DNA of 50,842 nucleotides from Candidatus Kapaibacterium sp. (lineage in GTDB: Bacteria; Bacteroidota; Ignavibacteria; Kapaibacteriales; UBA4661): positions 1-50,842 of the forward strand of contig RDXM01000095.1 in the NCBI GenBank assembly GCA_004292595.1, given 5' to 3'. Of the stretch, positions 571 to 9,102 are shown one piece after another (the stretch's first letter is position 1; every line of letters begins with the position of its first letter). The notes below the pieces were generated by a model that did no database searches, had not been told where the DNA came from, and saw only the letters and a program-made list of their open reading frames with translations. The position numbers and the translations under genes are program-made.

Positions 571-599
571 TTGACTTTGGCAAAAATTCTGCGTATCTT
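571..599 (+). promoter_or_regulatory. Possible promoter for the ilv leader
   Basis: TTGACT at 571-576 is followed after 17 bases by TATCTT at 594-599, a sigma70-like arrangement. TATCTTTC also comes close to the Bacteroidota -7 element TAnnTTTG. It lies in the gap after the OmpA-like stop and about 60 bases before the leader peptide start, where a leader promoter is expected. This is a visual match only. Confidence 0.4.
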
Positions 600-658: not shown

Positions 659-718
659 ATGCTTCTTTCATCCGCATACATCCTCCTTGTGATTCTTGTG
701 GTCATCGTCGTTACCTAA
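659..718 (+). CDS. ilv leader peptide (19 aa, Leu/Ile/Val-rich)
   Basis: The ATG at 659 opens a 19-codon frame ending in TAA at 716-718: MLLSSAYILLVILVVIVVT. Thirteen of the 19 residues are Leu (5), Ile (3) or Val (5), and the last is Thr. That is the composition expected of a leader that senses branched-chain aminoacyl-tRNA, as known for enterobacterial ilv leaders. It is followed at once by a perfect 16-bp terminator with a competing antiterminator, and then by the ilvD transcription unit. No clear Shine-Dalgarno sequence is seen, which is common in Bacteroidota. The alternative reading is a small hydrophobic membrane peptide of the Ibs/TisB toxin kind, but its position before ilvD favours a leader. 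Confidence 0.65.
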   Translation: MLLSSAYILLVILVVIVVT

Positions 719-724
719 GCGCGG

Positions 725-770
725 TGAGTGGAGAGCTTTTGCAGAGAATTTCACAAAAAGCCTTTTCTCA
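725..770 (+). promoter_or_regulatory. Antiterminator of the ilv attenuator
   Basis: Bases 725-740 can pair with 756-770, the 5' arm of the terminator. Four pairs (725-728 with 767-770) are followed by one T/T mismatch (729/766), four pairs including two G-U (730-733 with 762-765), one bulged A (734), and six pairs (735-740 with 756-761). Forming this helix would destroy the terminator. A short upstream hairpin, 711-715 with 722-726, overlaps the last leader codons and would occlude the start of segment 725-740. A ribosome stalled on the Ile/Val run would remove that hairpin. One finishing at the stop codon 716-718 would cover the antiterminator strand. Confidence 0.55.
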
Positions 771-794
771 CCAGATGTGAGAAAAGGCTTTTTT
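755..794 (+). terminator. Intrinsic terminator of the ilv leader (attenuator)
   Basis: A perfect 16-bp stem pairs 755-770 with 778-793 around a 7-base loop, and the 3' side runs into a T tract (789-794, then GTTTT). It lies between the leader peptide stop (718) and the next ORF (842), so readthrough is needed for expression of the small ORF and ilvD from an upstream promoter. The A-rich 5' side means it could also stop minus-strand transcripts. Confidence 0.9.
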
Positions 795-841
795 GTTTTG
801 CTTCTTTCTGGAATACTTAACAATCTATGGAGCCGATGATT

Positions 842-1045
842 ATGAAAACACTTACACTCAGCCTCAACGATACGCTTGCTGCACGTCTTGAAAAACAGGC
901 GCAACAGCAAGATATTTCTGTGGAAGAAGTTATTACAAACGTACTTGAAACGCTGACGGAATCTTCATTGCAGGAGTCTCGTGTTGAAGAAGGCATTGAA
1001 TACGTCATTGCGAAAAATCGTGAACTTTTGCAACGATTAGCGTGA
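842..1045 (+). CDS. Small ribbon-helix-helix-like protein (antitoxin-like)
   Basis: A 67-residue protein beginning MKTLTLSLNDTLAARLEKQA. A short beta strand with alternating residues, followed by two amphipathic helices (QDISVEEVITNVLETL and a C-terminal VEEGIEYVIAKNRELLQRL), suggests a MetJ/Arc-type DNA-binding fold such as antitoxins carry. ATG 842 is preferred over ATG 827 because GGAG at 829-832 sits 9 bases upstream. No toxin ORF follows; the next gene is ilvD, 76 bases later. It starts just after the attenuator, so it should be co-transcribed with ilvD. Whether it is an orphan antitoxin or a local regulator cannot be told from the sequence. Confidence 0.6.
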   Translation: MKTLTLSLNDTLAARLEKQAQQQDISVEEVITNVLETLTESSLQESRVEEGIEYVIAKNRELLQRLA

Positions 1046-1121: not shown

Positions 1122-2807
1122 ATGCTCAACAAATACAGCCGCGTTCTAACGCAAGACGACACCCAGCCCGCCGCACAAGCAATGCTCTATGCTATCGGCT
1201 TTTCCGAAAACGATATGCGCAAAGCACAAATCGGGATTGTTTCCACCGGATTCGAGGGAAATTCCTGCAATATGCACCTCAACGACCTCGCCGCGATTGT
1301 CAAAAAAGGCTTTGCCGAGCCAGAACTGAGCAAAGAGGTTCTCGGCTTAATTTTTCACACCATCGGCGTTTCCGACGGGATGTCGATGGGAACGCAGGGA
1401 ATGCGGTATTCGCTACCCTCGCGGGATGTGATTGCGGACAGCATCGAGACTGTTACCAACGCGCAGGCATATGACGGCGTGGTTACGATTGTCGGTTGCG
1501 ACAAAAATATGCCAGGCGCGATTATGGCAATGGGACGGCTGAACCGCCCGTCCATCATGGTCTATGGCGGTACGATTGCGTCGGGAAATTACAAAGGTAA
1601 AAAATTGAACATTGTTTCGGCGTTTGAAGCGCTCGGCGAGCGCGTTGCGGGAACAATTTCGGATGAAGATTTTAAGGGCGTTATCCGCAATGCCTGCCCT
1701 GGAGCGGGCGCGTGTGGCGGGATGTACACCGCAAACACGATGTCGTCGGCGATTGAGGCACTTGGTCTCAGCTTGCCGTACTCGTCATCCAATCCCGCCG
1801 TTTCGCCCGAAAAGCGTGATGAATGCTTGGGTGTGGCTCCGGCGATATTCAATCTGCTCAAAATGGATTTAAAGCCCCGCGACATTGTAACGCGGAAGTC
1901 GCTTGAAAACGCGCTTTCGATGGTGATGGTGATGGGCGGTTCGACCAATGCGGCACTGCACTTTTTGGCGATTGCCCGCGCTTTCGAGATTGATTGGACG
2001 CTGGAAGATATTCAACGTATCAGCGATAAAACGCCATTCTTAGCAGATTTGAAGCCGTCTGGCAAGTATTTGATGGAGGACGTTCACACGATTGGCGGCG
2101 TTCCTGCCGTGATGAAATTTATGCTCGAAAACGGCTTCCTGCATGGCGATTGTATGACGGTTACGGGCAAAACGATTGCGGAAAACCTTGCTGCCATGCC
2201 GCTTTTGGACGAGAAGCAAGATGTGATGCGGTCTTTGGCAAATCCTATCAAACCAACGGGGCATTTGCAGGTCTTGTACGGTAATCTCGCCGAAGGAGGC
2301 TCGGTGGCGAAAATCACGGGCAAAGAAGGCGAAAAATTTGTCGGTAAAGCGCGAGTGTTTGAGGGCGAAGATGACGCAAATGCGGGCATTATGGCGGGCA
2401 AAGTGCAGAAAGGCGACGTGATTGTGATTCGCTTTATTGGTCCTTCGGGTGCGCCTGGAATGCCAGAAATGCTGAAGCCTACGTCGCTCATCATGGGTGC
2501 GGGCTTGGGCAATGACGTTGCGCTGATTACCGATGGTCGCTTTTCGGGCGGGACGCACGGCTTTGTGGTCGGACACATCACGCCAGAGGCGCAGCGCGGC
2601 GGCACAATCGGCTTGCTGCAAGACGGCGACGTGATTACGATTGATGCCGTGAACAACCGCCTGCACGTGGATTTGTCGGATGCAGAAATTGCCAAACGCC
2701 GCGCCGCGCAAGTAATTCCGCCTCTCAAAGCCACAAGCGGCTATTTATACAAATATGCCAAAACGGTGTCGTCGGCGAGTGAGGGCTGCGTAACGGATAA
2801 ATTCTAG
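1122..2807 (+). CDS. ilvD: Dihydroxy-acid dehydratase
   Basis: 561 residues, the normal length for the IlvD/Edd family. The enzyme dehydrates 2,3-dihydroxy-isovalerate and 2,3-dihydroxy-3-methylvalerate to the 2-keto acids in valine and isoleucine synthesis. The three Fe-S cysteines are present: Cys49 (GNSCNMHL), Cys126 (GCDKNMPG) and Cys198 ([12 protein letters not shown]). Other family motifs are [23 protein letters not shown] and [16 protein letters not shown]. The frame can be extended to a TTG at 1068, but that adds a polar tail rich in Lys, Thr and Gln, and homologous proteins start near [13 protein letters not shown], so ATG 1122 is chosen. It is the first structural gene after the leader attenuator. 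The pathway partners ilvB and ilvN lie 3.7 kb downstream beyond an accessory block. Confidence 0.97.
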
Positions 2808-2840: not shown

Positions 2841-3170
2841 ATGACAACCACAGAAATTTACCCGCACATCACCCGCAATCAGCGTGGAGAACCCACGATT
2901 ATCGGCACTCGGACGCGCGTTCAGTCTATTGTTTGCTATTACAAACTCGGCATGAGTGCGGAAGAAATTCACGCTGCCTTGCCGTATTTGTCCGATGCGG
3001 AGCTTCATGCGGCATTTGCGTATTATTTCGATAACCGCGAGGAAATTGAGCGATTGATTGAGGAAGAGGATGAATTTTATCAACAGGCGAAAGCCCAGTA
3101 TGGAACAGTTGAAGACCTCATTCGAGAAAAAAATGAAGCGAAGCAGCGCGAAATGGCGGTAAAAATATGA
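2841..3170 (+). CDS. DUF433-family antitoxin
   Basis: 109 residues. The opening (IYPHITRNQRGEPTIIGTRTRVQSIVCYYKLGMSAEEI) matches the DUF433 pattern of a 'G.P.I.GTR..V..I' strand followed by a winged-helix-like segment with GMSAEEI..ALPYLS. DUF433 proteins are typically paired with PIN-like toxins. The C-terminal half (55-109) is a charged helix rich in Glu and Lys. A good ribosome-binding site (AAAGGA) precedes ATG 2841. Its stop overlaps the next start (ATGA at 3167-3170), so the two are translationally coupled. It begins 33 bases after ilvD, inside what would otherwise be an ilv operon. Confidence 0.85.
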   Translation: MTTTEIYPHITRNQRGEPTIIGTRTRVQSIVCYYKLGMSAEEIHAALPYLSDAELHAAFAYYFDNREEIERLIEEEDEFYQQAKAQYGTVEDLIREKNEAKQREMAVKI

Positions 3171-3505
3171 GCATCAAATTTCTTCTTGATGAAGACACGC
3201 AACTTGCTTTGGCACAAGCGTTTCGGCAGCGTGGTTTTGAAGCTGTTCATGTTTCCGAACTTCAACGCAAAGGGCTTTCCGACCCTGAACAGTTGGACTT
3301 TGCAGCACAAAACGGGTATTGCTTTTTTACGTTCAACAAACGCGATTTTGTCATTCTGCATACAGAATATACGGTCTTGAATAAAACGCATCATGGCATT
3401 ATCGCTTCGCCGCACTTATCCATTTCCGATATTTTGCGGTGCTTGGGCGTACTTGTTACGACCCTCTCCGTTCACGATATGAAGAATGAATTACGATTTT
3501 TATGA
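3167..3505 (+). CDS. PIN-like toxin, DUF5615 family
   Basis: 112 residues. The start MSIKFLLDEDTQLALAQAFRQRG carries the acidic cluster (Asp8, Glu9, Asp10) that marks DUF5615 (Mut7-C-like, PIN-like) proteins. Later FTFNKRDFVILH resembles the conserved 'T.D.DF' motif, here with Asn in place of the first Asp, and HHGIIASPHLSISDILRCL resembles the C-terminal part. These are predicted RNases acting as toxins next to DUF433 proteins, and the ATGA overlap with the preceding gene fits that. The Asn in the second motif may lower activity. Function is inferred from family and pairing, and no target can be named. Confidence 0.8.
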   Translation: MSIKFLLDEDTQLALAQAFRQRGFEAVHVSELQRKGLSDPEQLDFAAQNGYCFFTFNKRDFVILHTEYTVLNKTHHGIIASPHLSISDILRCLGVLVTTLSVHDMKNELRFL

Positions 3506-5312: not shown

Positions 5313-5531
5313 ATGAGTACCCTTACACGCCAAGTTCATGTTCATAACGGGCGCATCGCGCTGGAAGATTTGCCATTTACCGAAAATACGGAACTGACCG
5401 TTTTGCTGATGCCGACCTCACTGCCAATATTTCAGCCGAACCTTTCCGCTTGGATGGAAGCACGACGCTTGACAGAGGCTATTTCCGGTAGTCTTGCGGA
5501 TGATATTGCGAAGGAACGAGAGGAATTATGA
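5313..5531 (+). CDS. VapB-like antitoxin
   Basis: 72 residues. The N-terminal half (TRQVHVHNGRIALEDLPFTENTELTVLL) looks like a swapped-hairpin or AbrB-like strand region reading 'V..G.I.L..LP'. The C-terminal half (EARRLTEAISGSLADDIAKEREEL) is a charged helix of the type that wraps a PIN toxin. GGAG lies upstream of ATG 5313. Its end overlaps the toxin start by 4 bases (5528-5531), the usual arrangement for a toxin-antitoxin pair. DNA-binding autoregulation is usual for the family but no operator was identified. Confidence 0.75.
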   Translation: MSTLTRQVHVHNGRIALEDLPFTENTELTVLLMPTSLPIFQPNLSAWMEARRLTEAISGSLADDIAKEREEL

Positions 5532-5989
5532 CCGCTTTTTTGGACACAAATTGTTTGGTAAAAATATATCACGCAGAAGTCGGAACGCAGGAAATCACGG
5601 ATTTTATTATGCGGCACGGCTCGTCGCTCACGGTGATTATTGCCGAAATCAGCATCGTTGAATTTCGCTCGGCGTTTATGCGTCGTTGTCGGATGGGTGA
5701 AATTTCGCGGGATGTTGCAGATAAAACGATTGCCATTTTTCATAATGACACCGCTTCAATGCTGGTTGCTCCGCTCAGTACAACTGTGGTGCAAGAATCA
5801 CTTCGCCTCTTGGAAACTCATGCGGGCAATCTTGCCCTAAAAACGCTCGACAGCCTACAAATCTCTTCAGCACTGGTGTTCAGCCGTATTACGCCAATAG
5901 ATATGGTGCTATCTTCCGACAAAACATTTCTTGAGGTGATGCGGAAATATCTGACGGCACTGAACCCAATGAGCGATAGTCTGCCTTGA
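5528..5989 (+). CDS. VapC-like PIN-domain ribonuclease toxin
   Basis: 153 residues with the PIN-domain acidic set: Asp6 (FLDTNCLVK), Glu40/Glu45 (AEISIVEFRSAF), Asp108 (KTLDSLQISSAL) and Asp131 (LSSDKTF). VapC proteins are Mg2+-dependent RNases that cut tRNA or rRNA and are held inactive by their antitoxin. The overlap with the upstream antitoxin gene supports this role. The length is slightly above the usual 130-140 residues, with a polar tail. It is the second TA-like pair within 3 kb between ilvD and ilvB. Confidence 0.85.
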   Translation: MTAFLDTNCLVKIYHAEVGTQEITDFIMRHGSSLTVIIAEISIVEFRSAFMRRCRMGEISRDVADKTIAIFHNDTASMLVAPLSTTVVQESLRLLETHAGNLALKTLDSLQISSALVFSRITPIDMVLSSDKTFLEVMRKYLTALNPMSDSLP

Positions 5990-6419: not shown

Positions 6420-6489
6420 TCAAGATGCGAATCCTCAGAAATAAATATTCCCAACAATTTTCATCATTTTCAAAAAGTGAGTGTGCATT

Positions 6490-8235
6490 ATGTCAGCACC
6501 AGCAACACAATCCGCCAACAAACAAAAAACACCACCACAAGCGCAACCCCGCACCATCACTGGCGCGGAAGCCGTCATTGCGGCACTTGTGGAGGAAGGC
6601 GTTGATTTAATTTATGGTTATCCAGGCGGCGCAATTATGCCCATTTACGACGCGCTGTACGACTACCAAGACCGCGTGAAACACGTGCTTGTGCGCCACG
6701 AACAAGGTGCTGTCCACGCAGCACAAGGGTATGCGCGGGTTACGGGGCGTGTGGGCGTGTGCTTTGCTACGTCTGGTCCAGGCGCGACGAATCTTATCAC
6801 GGGTATTGCCGATGCGCAGATAGATTCTACGCCGCTTGTGTGCATCACGGGGCAAGTCGCATCGCACCTGCTTGGCACGGATGCCTTCCAAGAAACCGAC
6901 GTGATGGGTATTTCCATGCCCGTTACGAAGTGGAATTATCAAATCACCAAAGCCAGCGATATTCCCGCCGCGATTGCCAAAGCCTTCTACATCGCCAAAA
7001 GCGGACGACCGGGACCTGTGCTGCTCGACATCACCAAAGATGCGCAGTTCAACAAATTGGAGTATGAATACGAGCCGTGTACTGGGATTCGCAGCTACAA
7101 TCCCGTTCCGAAGGCGCGTCCAGACGACATAGAAGCCGCCGCAAAGCTCATCAATGGCGCGAAAAAGCCGTTTATTTTGGTGGGACATGGCGTTTTGCTC
7201 TCGGGTGCGCAGGAAGAGTTCAAAACCTTTGTTGAAAAAACGGGAATCCCTGCTGCTTCCACGCTGTTGGGCTTGTCGGCGTTTCCTGCAAATCACCCGC
7301 TCAACGTCGGATATTTGGGAATGCACGGCAACTACGGACCAAACGTAAAAACCAACCAAGCGGACGTGATAATCGCTGTCGGAATGCGCTTCGACGACCG
7401 CGTTACGGGCAATTTGTCGCTCTACGCAAAGCAAGCAAAAATCGTTCACATCGAAATTGACCCCTCCGAAATTGGCAAATGCGTAAAAGCGGACGTAGCA
7501 ATTAACGCGGACGCAAAAGAAGCTCTCACGCTACTTACTTCAAGAGTAACCGCCAACGCGCATCCCTCATGGTTACAGGAGTTTCACGATTGCGATGCGA
7601 TTGAATTAGAAAAAGTTATCAAAAAAGATTTTGCGCTGCCTGAAAACTCTATCAAAATGGCAAACGTCGTGCAGCGCATCAGTGACAAAACCAAAGGCGA
7701 GGCAATCGTTGTAACCGACGTGGGACAGCACCAAATGGTCGTTTCGCGCTATTACAAGTTCATCGGCACCGACACCAACGTTACTTCGGGCGGCTTGGGA
7801 ACAATGGGTTTCGCGCTTCCAGCGGCAATCGGCGCGAAAATGGGACAGCCAGACAAGGAAGTCGTTGCGGTCATTGGCGACGGCGGTTTTCAAATGACGT
7901 TGCAGGAACTCGGTACAATTTTCCAAGAGCAAACAGCCGTGAAAATTGTTCTTTTGAACAACAACTTTCTAGGAATGGTGCGGCAGTGGCAGCAATTATT
8001 TTTCGACCGTCGGTATTCGTTTGTGGAATTGAAAAATCCGAACTTTATTAAAATTGCCGACGGATTTGGCATAACCGCACGGAAAGTAGAGCATCCAAGC
8101 GAGCTTGATGCTGCGATTGACGAAATGCTTGCCCACACGGGACCGTATTTCTTGGAAGTGGTCGTCGAAAAAGAAGAGAACGTCTTCCCGATGGTGCCGA
8201 CGGGCGCGAGCGTGGCGGATATTCGCTTGGAGTGA
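6490..8235 (+). CDS. ilvB: Acetolactate synthase large (catalytic) subunit
   Basis: 581 residues, typical length. A ThDP- and FAD-dependent enzyme that condenses pyruvate to acetolactate, or pyruvate with 2-ketobutyrate to acetohydroxybutyrate, the first common step to valine, leucine and isoleucine. Visible motifs are GYPGGAIMPIYDAL, the catalytic-Glu segment RHEQGAVHAAQGYARVTG, FATSGPGATNLITGIADA, the FAD region (VGMRFDDRVTG), and the ThDP/Mg loop GDGGFQMTLQEL followed by NNNFLGMVRQWQ. ATG 6490 is chosen; a GTG at 6481 is also possible. The first 25 residues are a polar Thr/Gln/Ala tail. It is followed by a small ORF and ilvN on the same strand. Confidence 0.97.
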   Translation: MSAPATQSANKQKTPPQAQPRTITGAEAVIAALVEEGVDLIYGYPGGAIMPIYDALYDYQDRVKHVLVRHEQGAVHAAQGYARVTGRVGVCFATSGPGATNLITGIADAQIDSTPLVCITGQVASHLLGTDAFQETDVMGISMPVTKWNYQITKASDIPAAIAKAFYIAKSGRPGPVLLDITKDAQFNKLEYEYEPCTGIRSYNPVPKARPDDIEAAAKLINGAKKPFILVGHGVLLSGAQEEFKTFVEKTGIPAASTLLGLSAFPANHPLNVGYLGMHGNYGPNVKTNQADVIIAVGMRFDDRVTGNLSLYAKQAKIVHIEIDPSEIGKCVKADVAINADAKEALTLLTSRVTANAHPSWLQEFHDCDAIELEKVIKKDFALPENSIKMANVVQRISDKTKGEAIVVTDVGQHQMVVSRYYKFIGTDTNVTSGGLGTMGFALPAAIGAKMGQPDKEVVAVIGDGGFQMTLQELGTIFQEQTAVKIVLLNNNFLGMVRQWQQLFFDRRYSFVELKNPNFIKIADGFGITARKVEHPSELDAAIDEMLAHTGPYFLEVVVEKEENVFPMVPTGASVADIRLE

Positions 8236-8287
8236 GCATTTTCTGGGAAATACTATCATTTTGTTTCTCATTTTTTTATCAACAATT

Positions 8288-8476
8288 ATGCTAACAACTC
8301 CCACAATGCCTGTGAATCCTGAAGAAGCCGCTATTATGGCACTCTTCAGTAAGCCCGCTTCCAAAACGACCAAAGCTGTGAAAGTAAGCGATGAGCAAGT
8401 CCGACGCTTACAAGAAATGTCGCCGCAAGAGCGGGCGGAGTTCGTGAAACACATTGCGGAAGAAGGCAATCGTTAA
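8288..8476 (+). CDS. Small protein between ilvB and ilvN
   Basis: 62 residues from ATG 8288 to TAA 8474-8476. The middle is Lys/Thr-rich (SKPASKTTKAVKVSDEQVRR) and the end is a helix of conserved look, LQEMSPQERAEFVKHIAEEG. It lies in the 294-base gap between ilvB and ilvN and is followed by ilvN 53 bases later, so co-transcription is likely. I do not recognise a family. It could be an unannotated partner of the synthase or simply a small operon gene. Coding is supported by the coherent protein-like C-terminus; the same frame upstream of 8288 is ilvB shadow. Confidence 0.55.
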   Translation: MLTTPTMPVNPEEAAIMALFSKPASKTTKAVKVSDEQVRRLQEMSPQERAEFVKHIAEEGNR

Positions 8477-8529
8477 CAATTTGGCAAGCACTCAAAACTC
8501 AACATTCAAAACTCAACACTTTCAAAACT

Positions 8530-9102
8530 ATGACGCAACCAAAACGTCTCTACACCATCATCGCCTTTACGGAAAATCGTATTGGCTTGCTGAACCGCAT
8601 CACGATTATCTTCACGCGGCGGCATATCAATATCGAATCGCTCACCACCAGTGAATGCGAGGTGGATGGCGTACACCGCTTCACCATCACCGTCCGCACG
8701 ACCGAAGAACGCGCTGTGAAGGTCGTGAAGCAAATTGAAAAGCTCATCGAAGTCATCAAAGCCTCGCTCCATACCGAAGAGGACACGATGTATCAGGAAC
8801 TTGCTCTTTTCAAAATTGACGCACACAAAATCGCTGCCGACGGCTCGTTTACTGCATTCTTGAGTACGCTCAAAAAATACAATGCGGAAATCCAAAGTTC
8901 TGAAAAAGACTACATTATCGTCCAAAAAATCGGTCGTCGTGTGGAAATTTTCATGCTTTTGGACGCGCTGAAAGAATATCACGTGCTGGAGTTTGCAAAG
9001 TCTGGCAGAGTAGCAATGACGCGCTCTGCAATGGATTTGGATGGTTATTTGCATGAAGTAGAGCAGCGCAGTTTGATTCCCGATACGTTATCCACGAATT
9101 AA
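8530..9102 (+). CDS. ilvN: Acetolactate synthase small (regulatory) subunit
   Basis: 190 residues, a normal long-form small subunit. The N-terminal ACT domain is clear (YTIIAFTENRIGLLNRITIIFTRRHINIESLTTSECEVDGVHRFTITV, about residues 7-80), followed by the C-terminal domain (MYQELALFKID, GRRVEIFMLLDALKEYHVLEFAKSGRVAMTR). It stimulates the catalytic subunit and confers feedback inhibition, usually by valine. The ACT loop retains Asn16 (TENRIGLL). It follows the small ORF and precedes the SDR gene by 8 bases, so all four may form one operon. Confidence 0.95.
   Translation: MTQPKRLYTIIAFTENRIGLLNRITIIFTRRHINIESLTTSECEVDGVHRFTITVRTTEERAVKVVKQIEKLIEVIKASLHTEEDTMYQELALFKIDAHKIAADGSFTAFLSTLKKYNAEIQSSEKDYIIVQKIGRRVEIFMLLDALKEYHVLEFAKSGRVAMTRSAMDLDGYLHEVEQRSLIPDTLSTN

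Follow-up and report, generated by a model that had tools for sequence, protein, structure and literature searches.

The ilvD locus and its leader region

The window, by which is meant the whole 50,842-nucleotide stretch of DNA analysed here, is contig 28 of a 4.6-Mb genome. Near its start it carries a dihydroxy-acid dehydratase gene (ilvD), preceded by an antitoxin-like small ORF and, ahead of both, by a leader region whose features are collected in Table 1. The assignment of the larger gene to ilvD, made in an earlier note on this DNA, is sound. The small ORF is open from position 827, and the choice of the ATG at 842 agrees with its relatives; the label 'RHH-like', which it had been given, is weakly backed by Pfam matches below cut-off, to DUF6364 in the window and to ParD_like in one of the two relatives scanned.

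Table 1. Coordinates of the features in and around the proposed attenuator.
Feature	Position	Strand	Basis or remark
Promoter-like site, TTGAC(TTTG)-N18-TATCTT	571..599	+	Consensus scan, 9/12
Leader peptide ORF, MLLSSAYILLVILVVIVVT and stop	659..718	+	Translation; frame kept in 6/7 genomes
Segment 1 (TCATCG), inside Val15-Ile16-Val17	702..707	+	MFE; anti-antiterminator helix with 722-727
Segment 2	722..740	+	Partner of segment 1 (722-727) and of segment 3 (723-740)
Segment 3	755..772	+	Terminator left arm 755-771; antiterminator 3' strand 756-772
Segment 4	777..799	+	Terminator right arm 777-793 and U-rich tail
Small ORF, antitoxin-like	842..1045	+	Open from 827; ATG at 842 agrees with relatives
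ilvD, dihydroxy-acid dehydratase, the regulated gene in the proposal	1122..2807	+	Protein identity sound

Further genes for branched-chain amino acid synthesis, ilvB (acetolactate synthase large subunit) and an ilvN-like small subunit, occupy 6481-9102, 3.7 kb downstream of ilvD and separated from it by other genes. Two toxin-antitoxin-like modules lie near the ilv genes: a DUF433 and DUF5615 pair at 2841-3505 and a small ORF with a PIN-domain partner at 5313-5989. Inspection by eye also revealed a tandem repeat of ~39 bases at the contig start (1-100), just before an OmpA-like domain. A search for similar DNA on plasmids returned no match.

The 19-codon leader with 13 Leu, Ile or Val residues that the earlier note had proposed was confirmed by translation. 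Of the window ORFs of 10-36 codons, it alone combines a length of 15 codons or more with a Leu/Ile/Val share of 68% or higher. Ten dinucleotide shuffles of the window yielded 15,086 ORFs in the same size range, of which 13 reached at least 60% Leu/Ile/Val and none attained 68% with at least 15 codons; the Leu/Ile/Val content of the leader is beyond chance. No Shine-Dalgarno-like site was apparent by eye before the leader ORF. Genes of the Bacteroidota mostly lack Shine-Dalgarno sites.

The promoter-like site upstream of the leader, which had been overlooked in the earlier note, suggests a transcript start near 606. A loose sigma-70 scan of the first 3.5 kb gave six sites, compared with 3.6 expected by chance. 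The loose scan also yielded a second window site of equal score at 888-916, located after the terminator and inside the small ORF, and transcription could therefore also begin downstream in the window.

Competing helices and the proposed switch

Beyond the leader ORF lies an intrinsic terminator, composed of arms at 755-771 and 777-793 and a U-rich tail extending to 799. The perfect stem spanning 755-793 is thus as first described, except that it contains 17 bp and not the 16 bp claimed. The antiterminator is a helix of 16 bp in three stretches (723-728 with 767-772, 730-733 with 762-765 and 735-740 with 756-761), with an energy of about -20 kcal/mol; it had been placed at 725-740 with 756-770, and was found to be present but to extend over 723-740 and 756-772. 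The coordinates originally given were, overall, correct to within two bases. Antiterminator and terminator are mutually exclusive, both using segment 3, and the complementarity of segment 2 to the terminator left arm in the window surpasses that of shuffled versions of segment 2 (p=0.001). In addition, segments 1 and 2 form a helix (702-707 with 722-727), to which the MFE structure of the window adds pairing of 709-712 with 718-721. This is the third helix of a classical attenuator and it had been missed in the first reading.

The leader RNA as a whole (606-799) is more stable than each of 200 dinucleotide shuffles (z -4.6). Five stretches lacking the terminator right arm are unremarkable (z -0.5 to -1.9), and the high stability must therefore derive mainly from the terminator. 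Folding was also carried out with a ribosome masking part of the RNA, its assumed footprint covering -18 to +12 around the A-site codon. In RNA ending at 773, before segment 4, the probability of the antiterminator was 0.73 with no ribosome, 0.94-1.0 with the ribosome masked at the codons of 698-710, and 0 with the ribosome masked at the stop codon. These values agree with the geometry put forward in the earlier note, where a ribosome stalled on the Val/Ile run would free the antiterminator strand and one at the stop would cover it. When the RNA was extended to 795, the terminator had a probability of 0.98 in every case folded. As the terminator dominates the full-length RNA at equilibrium, the switch must be kinetic, that is, decided during transcription.

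The leader, the promoter-like site and the three mutually exclusive helices, together with their conservation, have been established by computation, and the region they occupy (571-799) is very probably a ribosome-mediated (leader-peptide) transcription attenuator of ilvD, as predicted from sequence. The transcript's start and end, leader translation and amino-acid response are inferred parts of this model. Transcription would begin near 606, and a ribosome would translate the Leu/Ile/Val-rich leader behind RNA polymerase. Where charged Val, Ile and Leu tRNAs are plentiful, the ribosome would reach the stop codon at 716-718 and cover segment 2 or, alternatively, the 1:2 helix would form after ribosome release. 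With segment 2 unavailable, segments 3 and 4 would pair as the terminator and transcription would end near 794. Should branched-chain aminoacyl-tRNA be scarce, the ribosome would stall on the Val-Val-Ile-Val-Val codons (698-712), covering segment 1, and the free segment 2 would pair with segment 3, which would block the terminator and allow the polymerase to enter the small ORF and ilvD.

The clear dominance of the terminator fold at equilibrium would also suit a constitutive terminator, which would insulate ilvD from upstream transcription, the leader being incidental and the ilvD promoter located after the terminator, where the loose scan places the 888-916 site. Such an arrangement would, however, leave the composition of the leader and the presence of an antiterminator unexplained, and it also has to accommodate the distribution of promoter-like sites and upstream genes among related genomes.

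Conservation in the genus and in other Bacteroidota

A covariance model of the unit, built from five sequences, strongly matched 7 of the 8 genomes of the genus, and an order-wide scan at E 1e-5 recovered the same seven among 123 genomes. The unit precedes ilvD in six of them, namely those whose contigs reach ilvD; in the seventh (G002), the contig stops right after the terminator and ilvD was not found there. Neither a strong match to the unit nor ilvD was detected in the eighth genus genome (G004), which is 86% complete. Weaker matches (E 1e-4 to 1) occur in all 10 genomes of the family, and several of these matches are those same terminators read on the opposite strand. In G009, of the same family, the best match is weak and lies elsewhere, and a strict scan found no leader before ilvD. 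The earlier note had staked its reading on conservation in close relatives, and the presence of the unit in seven of eight genus genomes leaves that reading standing.

Of the seven genomes with the unit, six preserve the Leu/Ile/Val frame, and all seven preserve the antiterminator and terminator. The leader versions in these six genomes are MLLSSAYILLVILVVIVVT (window), MLLSASYIIIVLFVVIVEQQLR, MLLSPAYIIIVLFVVIVEQQLR, MLISRSYILLVIFVVIVIT, MLLSPSYILLVIFVVIVIT and MTLPSAHLLFMLVVVVLIVIL; that of G002 is MLLSPSYILLVIFVVIVIT, for which an alternative ATG two codons earlier is possible. The C-terminus of the peptide is variable (VVT, EQQLR, VIT, VIL). Across the 10 pairs of five genomes (first 17 codons, G003 and G005 excluded), codon differences number 39, 4 and 62 at positions 1, 2 and 3, respectively; given so few changes at position 2, the second-position T of the Leu/Ile/Val codons is nearly fixed. 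A random-mutation test of Leu/Ile/Val retention gave modest p values of 0.03-0.13 per comparison with the window. In G005 (L098, minus strand, about 1480-1545 of the reverse complement), judged by eye, the leader has another triplet in place of its ATG and lacks three codons. The terminator and antiterminator are retained there and an internal ATG would yield MVIVVALER; from its sequence, this unit is a candidate for a natural start-less or internally started attenuator.

These observations bear on whether the ORF might instead be a gene for a small hydrophobic membrane protein (about 19-22 aa) that has a promoter of its own and an ordinary terminator, and whose position before ilvD is coincidental or serves some other function. 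The hydrophobic peptide and the frame kept in six of seven genomes are in keeping with such a gene, but it would leave unexplained the conserved segment 2 (GGTGAG..AGAGC), which is complementary to both leader codons and terminator arm. The variable C-terminus and the loss of the start codon in G005 also count against it, as does the enrichment in precisely those residues that the downstream pathway makes, and this explanation is considered very unlikely.

Conservation of the attenuator's structure was measured on an alignment of the seven sequences fitted to the 1:2 and 3:4 structure. In these two helices 99.3% of cells are paired, and three terminator pairs are changed on both sides among the seven genomes. 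Their covariation score was equalled by 2 of 500 shuffles, whilst the count of pairs changed on both sides was equalled by 62 of 500 and the count of pair types by 278 of 500. The 1:2 helix is paired in all seven sequences, but five of its six pairs are invariant. For the antiterminator, 96.4% of cells are paired, compared with 45-63% for slid versions; one of its pairs is changed on both sides, which is not above column shuffles (285/500). Complementarity between segment 2 and the terminator left arm is significant in each of the seven genomes (p 0.0005-0.023). From these counts it follows that the terminator is backed by covariation, the antiterminator by kept pairing and per-sequence complementarity, and the 1:2 helix by near-invariance only. 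The compensatory changes that the earlier note had suggested looking for are hence found in the terminator, as the three pairs, and in the antiterminator do not exceed shuffles. The terminator of G003 has a poor U-run.

A conserved TTGAC-N18-TAnnTT site precedes the leader in all seven genomes, with one further match upstream in G005, and no site of this type was found between the terminator and ilvD in the six genomes that cover that stretch. The same motif also precedes leuA in five of seven relatives, by eye. The genes upstream of the promoter differ among six genomes while the unit stays with ilvD: they encode an OmpA-like protein in the window, DUF1579 in G006, PIN in G007, FGE-sulfatase/DinB in G003, an M16 peptidase in G002 and, on the other strand, a cytochrome c assembly protein in G005. 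No long ORF was found on the short contig of G001, where the sequence ahead of the promoter looks, by eye, like that of G006. A constitutive terminator that shields ilvD from its upstream neighbours is difficult to reconcile with the positions of the promoter-like sites, the conserved one lying ahead of the leader and the stretch behind the terminator having none of this type in the six genomes that cover it, and with a unit that persists although the upstream genes differ. The 888-916 site lies inside the small ORF, and G003 and G005 lack that ORF. This account is judged slightly less likely than a membrane-protein gene.

Returning to the attenuator, the genes that would fall under its control vary. 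In G001, G006 and G007, an antitoxin-like ORF and a Fic-like ORF lie between terminator and ilvD (L004 838-1444; L006 851-1461; L005, minus strand), the latter matching PF02661 at E about 5e-21 in the two that were scanned, G006 and G007. The window keeps the small ORF alone, without Fic, and G003 and G005 have neither, by eye. Where present, the antitoxin-Fic pair would come under control of the attenuator. No convincing attenuator leader was found at leuA in seven genus loci, where low-quality TTG-started ORFs (three in L141, one in L142) were set aside, and leuA was not found in G000, the window's own genome.

At E 1e-100 or better, IlvD was found in 7 of 61 related genomes, these being 6 of the 8 of the genus and G009. 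In a tree restricted to best hits, the genus IlvD groups with those of Bacteroidia (local support 0.87), to which it is up to about 70% identical. Since it is Bacteroidia-like and the IlvD of G009, from the same family, is only 53% identical to that of the window, horizontal acquisition of ilvD, perhaps together with its attenuator, is possible on sequence grounds. In an RpoB tree of 16 rows, nine genomes of the window's order group together in a separate clade, next to Bacteroidia, Balneolaceae and an Ignavibacteriae MAG, a placement from which the lineage is probably a deep FCB one. The FMO protein, used as a marker of Chlorobiales, was matched in 0 of 13 genomes; the controls were also silent, so this shows little.

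Similar units were sought before ilvD in the 80 loci with the best similarity to the window's IlvD, a sample and not a census, of which 77 are titled Bacteroidota and the others Thalassovita, Planktophila and Ignavibacteriae. By a loose count, a Leu/Ile/Val-rich ORF precedes ilvD in 26 of these best 80 loci; the same count in downstream windows gave 32 of 307. When a terminator after the ORF was also demanded, within the 600 nt ahead of ilvD, 27 of the best 80 qualified, with controls of 8/80 (antisense), 9/305 (downstream windows) and 8/400 (shuffles). Under strict limits, which most loci fail, leader and terminator together precede ilvD in 18 of the best 80, compared with 1/80 antisense, 0/305 downstream windows and 0/800 dinucleotide shuffles. 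The passing loci are titled Flavobacterium, Lutibacter, Aquimarina, Gaetbulibacter, Algibacter, Saprospiraceae, Sediminibacterium, two unplaced Bacteroidetes and one Ignavibacteriae. G005, whose leader has lost its ATG, escapes the strict scan, and G001, G006 and G007 are recovered by it only if the search distance is raised to 1000 nt. The layout had been regarded in the earlier note as unusual for an FCB-type genome; its occurrence before ilvD in 18 of the 80 best-matching loci, mostly Bacteroidota, contradicts that view.

From 31 ORF-terminator pairs, 28 units were retained after dropping three weak ones (L030, L068, L084), with a later in-frame ATG adopted for four. The spacer is complementary to the terminator left arm at p<0.05 in 15 of the 28 units (about 1.4 expected; uncorrected for test number) and not significantly so (p 0.05 or more) in the other 13. 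Segment 2 may lie inside the end of the ORF in several units (L061, L073, L078, Flavobacterium). In four loci (L023, L049, L075, L081), which belong to the 18 that pass the strict scan, two units stand in series before ilvD, from about -530 to -30 relative to its start; in three of these loci, the complementarity is significant for both members. The second leader of L023 and L075 begins no more than about 15 nt from the first terminator's U-run, or at the U-run itself. A second leader is also present in L022, where no terminator for it was found.

Known leader systems and implications

A search of Rfam returned no match at gathering score in the window, including to T-box and Bacteroid-trp (RF01692). 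As candidates for a riboswitch, T-box or other Rfam family, 21 relaxed matches within 520-900 were rejected, all being far below gathering score and most lying over the terminator hairpin. At the attenuators of the further loci no Rfam match was found in the 14 of 24 candidate loci searched; elsewhere in those 14, SAM-II was matched in L075 and Flavo-1 in L049, neither of them at the attenuators. The pairing of a terminator with an antiterminator is common to riboswitch and T-box leaders, and a control of this kind, lacking a translated leader, would account for that layout. Besides the lack of a gathering-score match in the window, however, the RNA between promoter and ORF is poorly conserved and conservation resides in the codons and the switching segments, making this the least likely of the alternatives considered.

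Leader-peptide attenuation is, by comparison, a familiar arrangement. The ilvGMEDA and ilvBN operons of E. coli share with the window a leader rich in codons for branched-chain amino acids, competing helices and an intrinsic terminator before genes of the same pathway. Unlike those leaders, the present one has 19 codons, precedes ilvD, has no Shine-Dalgarno-like site and belongs to a lineage outside Proteobacteria; no sequence relation between them is claimed. Branched-chain leader peptides of E. coli are mentioned in PMC10272879 and PMC5794164. The attenuator peptide described for ilvD of Staphylococcus aureus is similar in being an Ile/Leu-rich leader, of 26 aa, with a terminator 52 nt downstream, but the antiterminator proposed there spares the terminator stem and pairs with its poly-U (PMC5794164). 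Segment 2 of the window, in contrast, invades the terminator left arm, as in the trp model of E. coli.

The ilvB-II motif of Corynebacterium and the ilvB motif of Leptospira likewise comprise an upstream ORF rich in branched-chain residues, ahead of genes of this pathway, for which attenuation has been proposed (PMC10272879). These differ in belonging to other phyla and in lying upstream of ilvB. Within the Bacteroidetes, the Bacteroid-trp RNA carries a Trp-rich leader before trp genes. This RNA (RF01692), listed in PMC2864571 as a candidate cis-regulatory RNA of Bacteroidetes, is similar in kind, but it serves another pathway and has no gathering-score match in the window. The idea of leader-peptide attenuation in the same phylum is also already in print for Bacteroides thetaiotaomicron, in which small ORFs in long 5' UTRs are said to be reminiscent of attenuation leader peptides (PMC7366714). 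The passage in question differs in naming BT_4401, a hypothetical protein, and no ilv genes, and states that the ORFs need validation (PMC7366714).

As of 2010, leader-peptide systems had, as far as the authors of one paper knew, been shown only in Proteobacteria and Actinobacteria, except for a Firmicutes example of their own and the atypical leader of ermC (PMC2965389). Leaders for branched-chain amino acids have since been proposed in S. aureus (PMC5794164) and Leptospira (PMC10272879). Among the matches listed in searches of the open-access literature, there was no account of leader peptides for branched-chain amino acid genes or ilvD in Bacteroidota. A comparative survey by Lopatovskaya et al. 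from 2010 reportedly may include predictions for Bacteroidetes/Chlorobi.

A broader proposal can be put forward tentatively, as one that is plausible though somewhat doubtful: leader-peptide attenuation may be a common and undescribed control of ilvD across Bacteroidota and neighbouring FCB lineages, sometimes operating as a double gate, and in some species starvation for branched-chain amino acids may also switch the inserted antitoxin-Fic pair. The kind of mechanism is itself already known, and the parts most worth following are its spread in the phylum and the tandem layout, which would offer a simple natural way to make the response steeper. If the units are functional, the mechanism would extend to ilvD in Bacteroidota and in a deep FCB lineage, and the units would provide ready-made reporters for the linkage of transcription and translation in a phylum poor in Shine-Dalgarno sites. 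Were such attenuators indeed common there, transcription and translation in these bacteria would have to be close enough for the ribosome to steer the polymerase.
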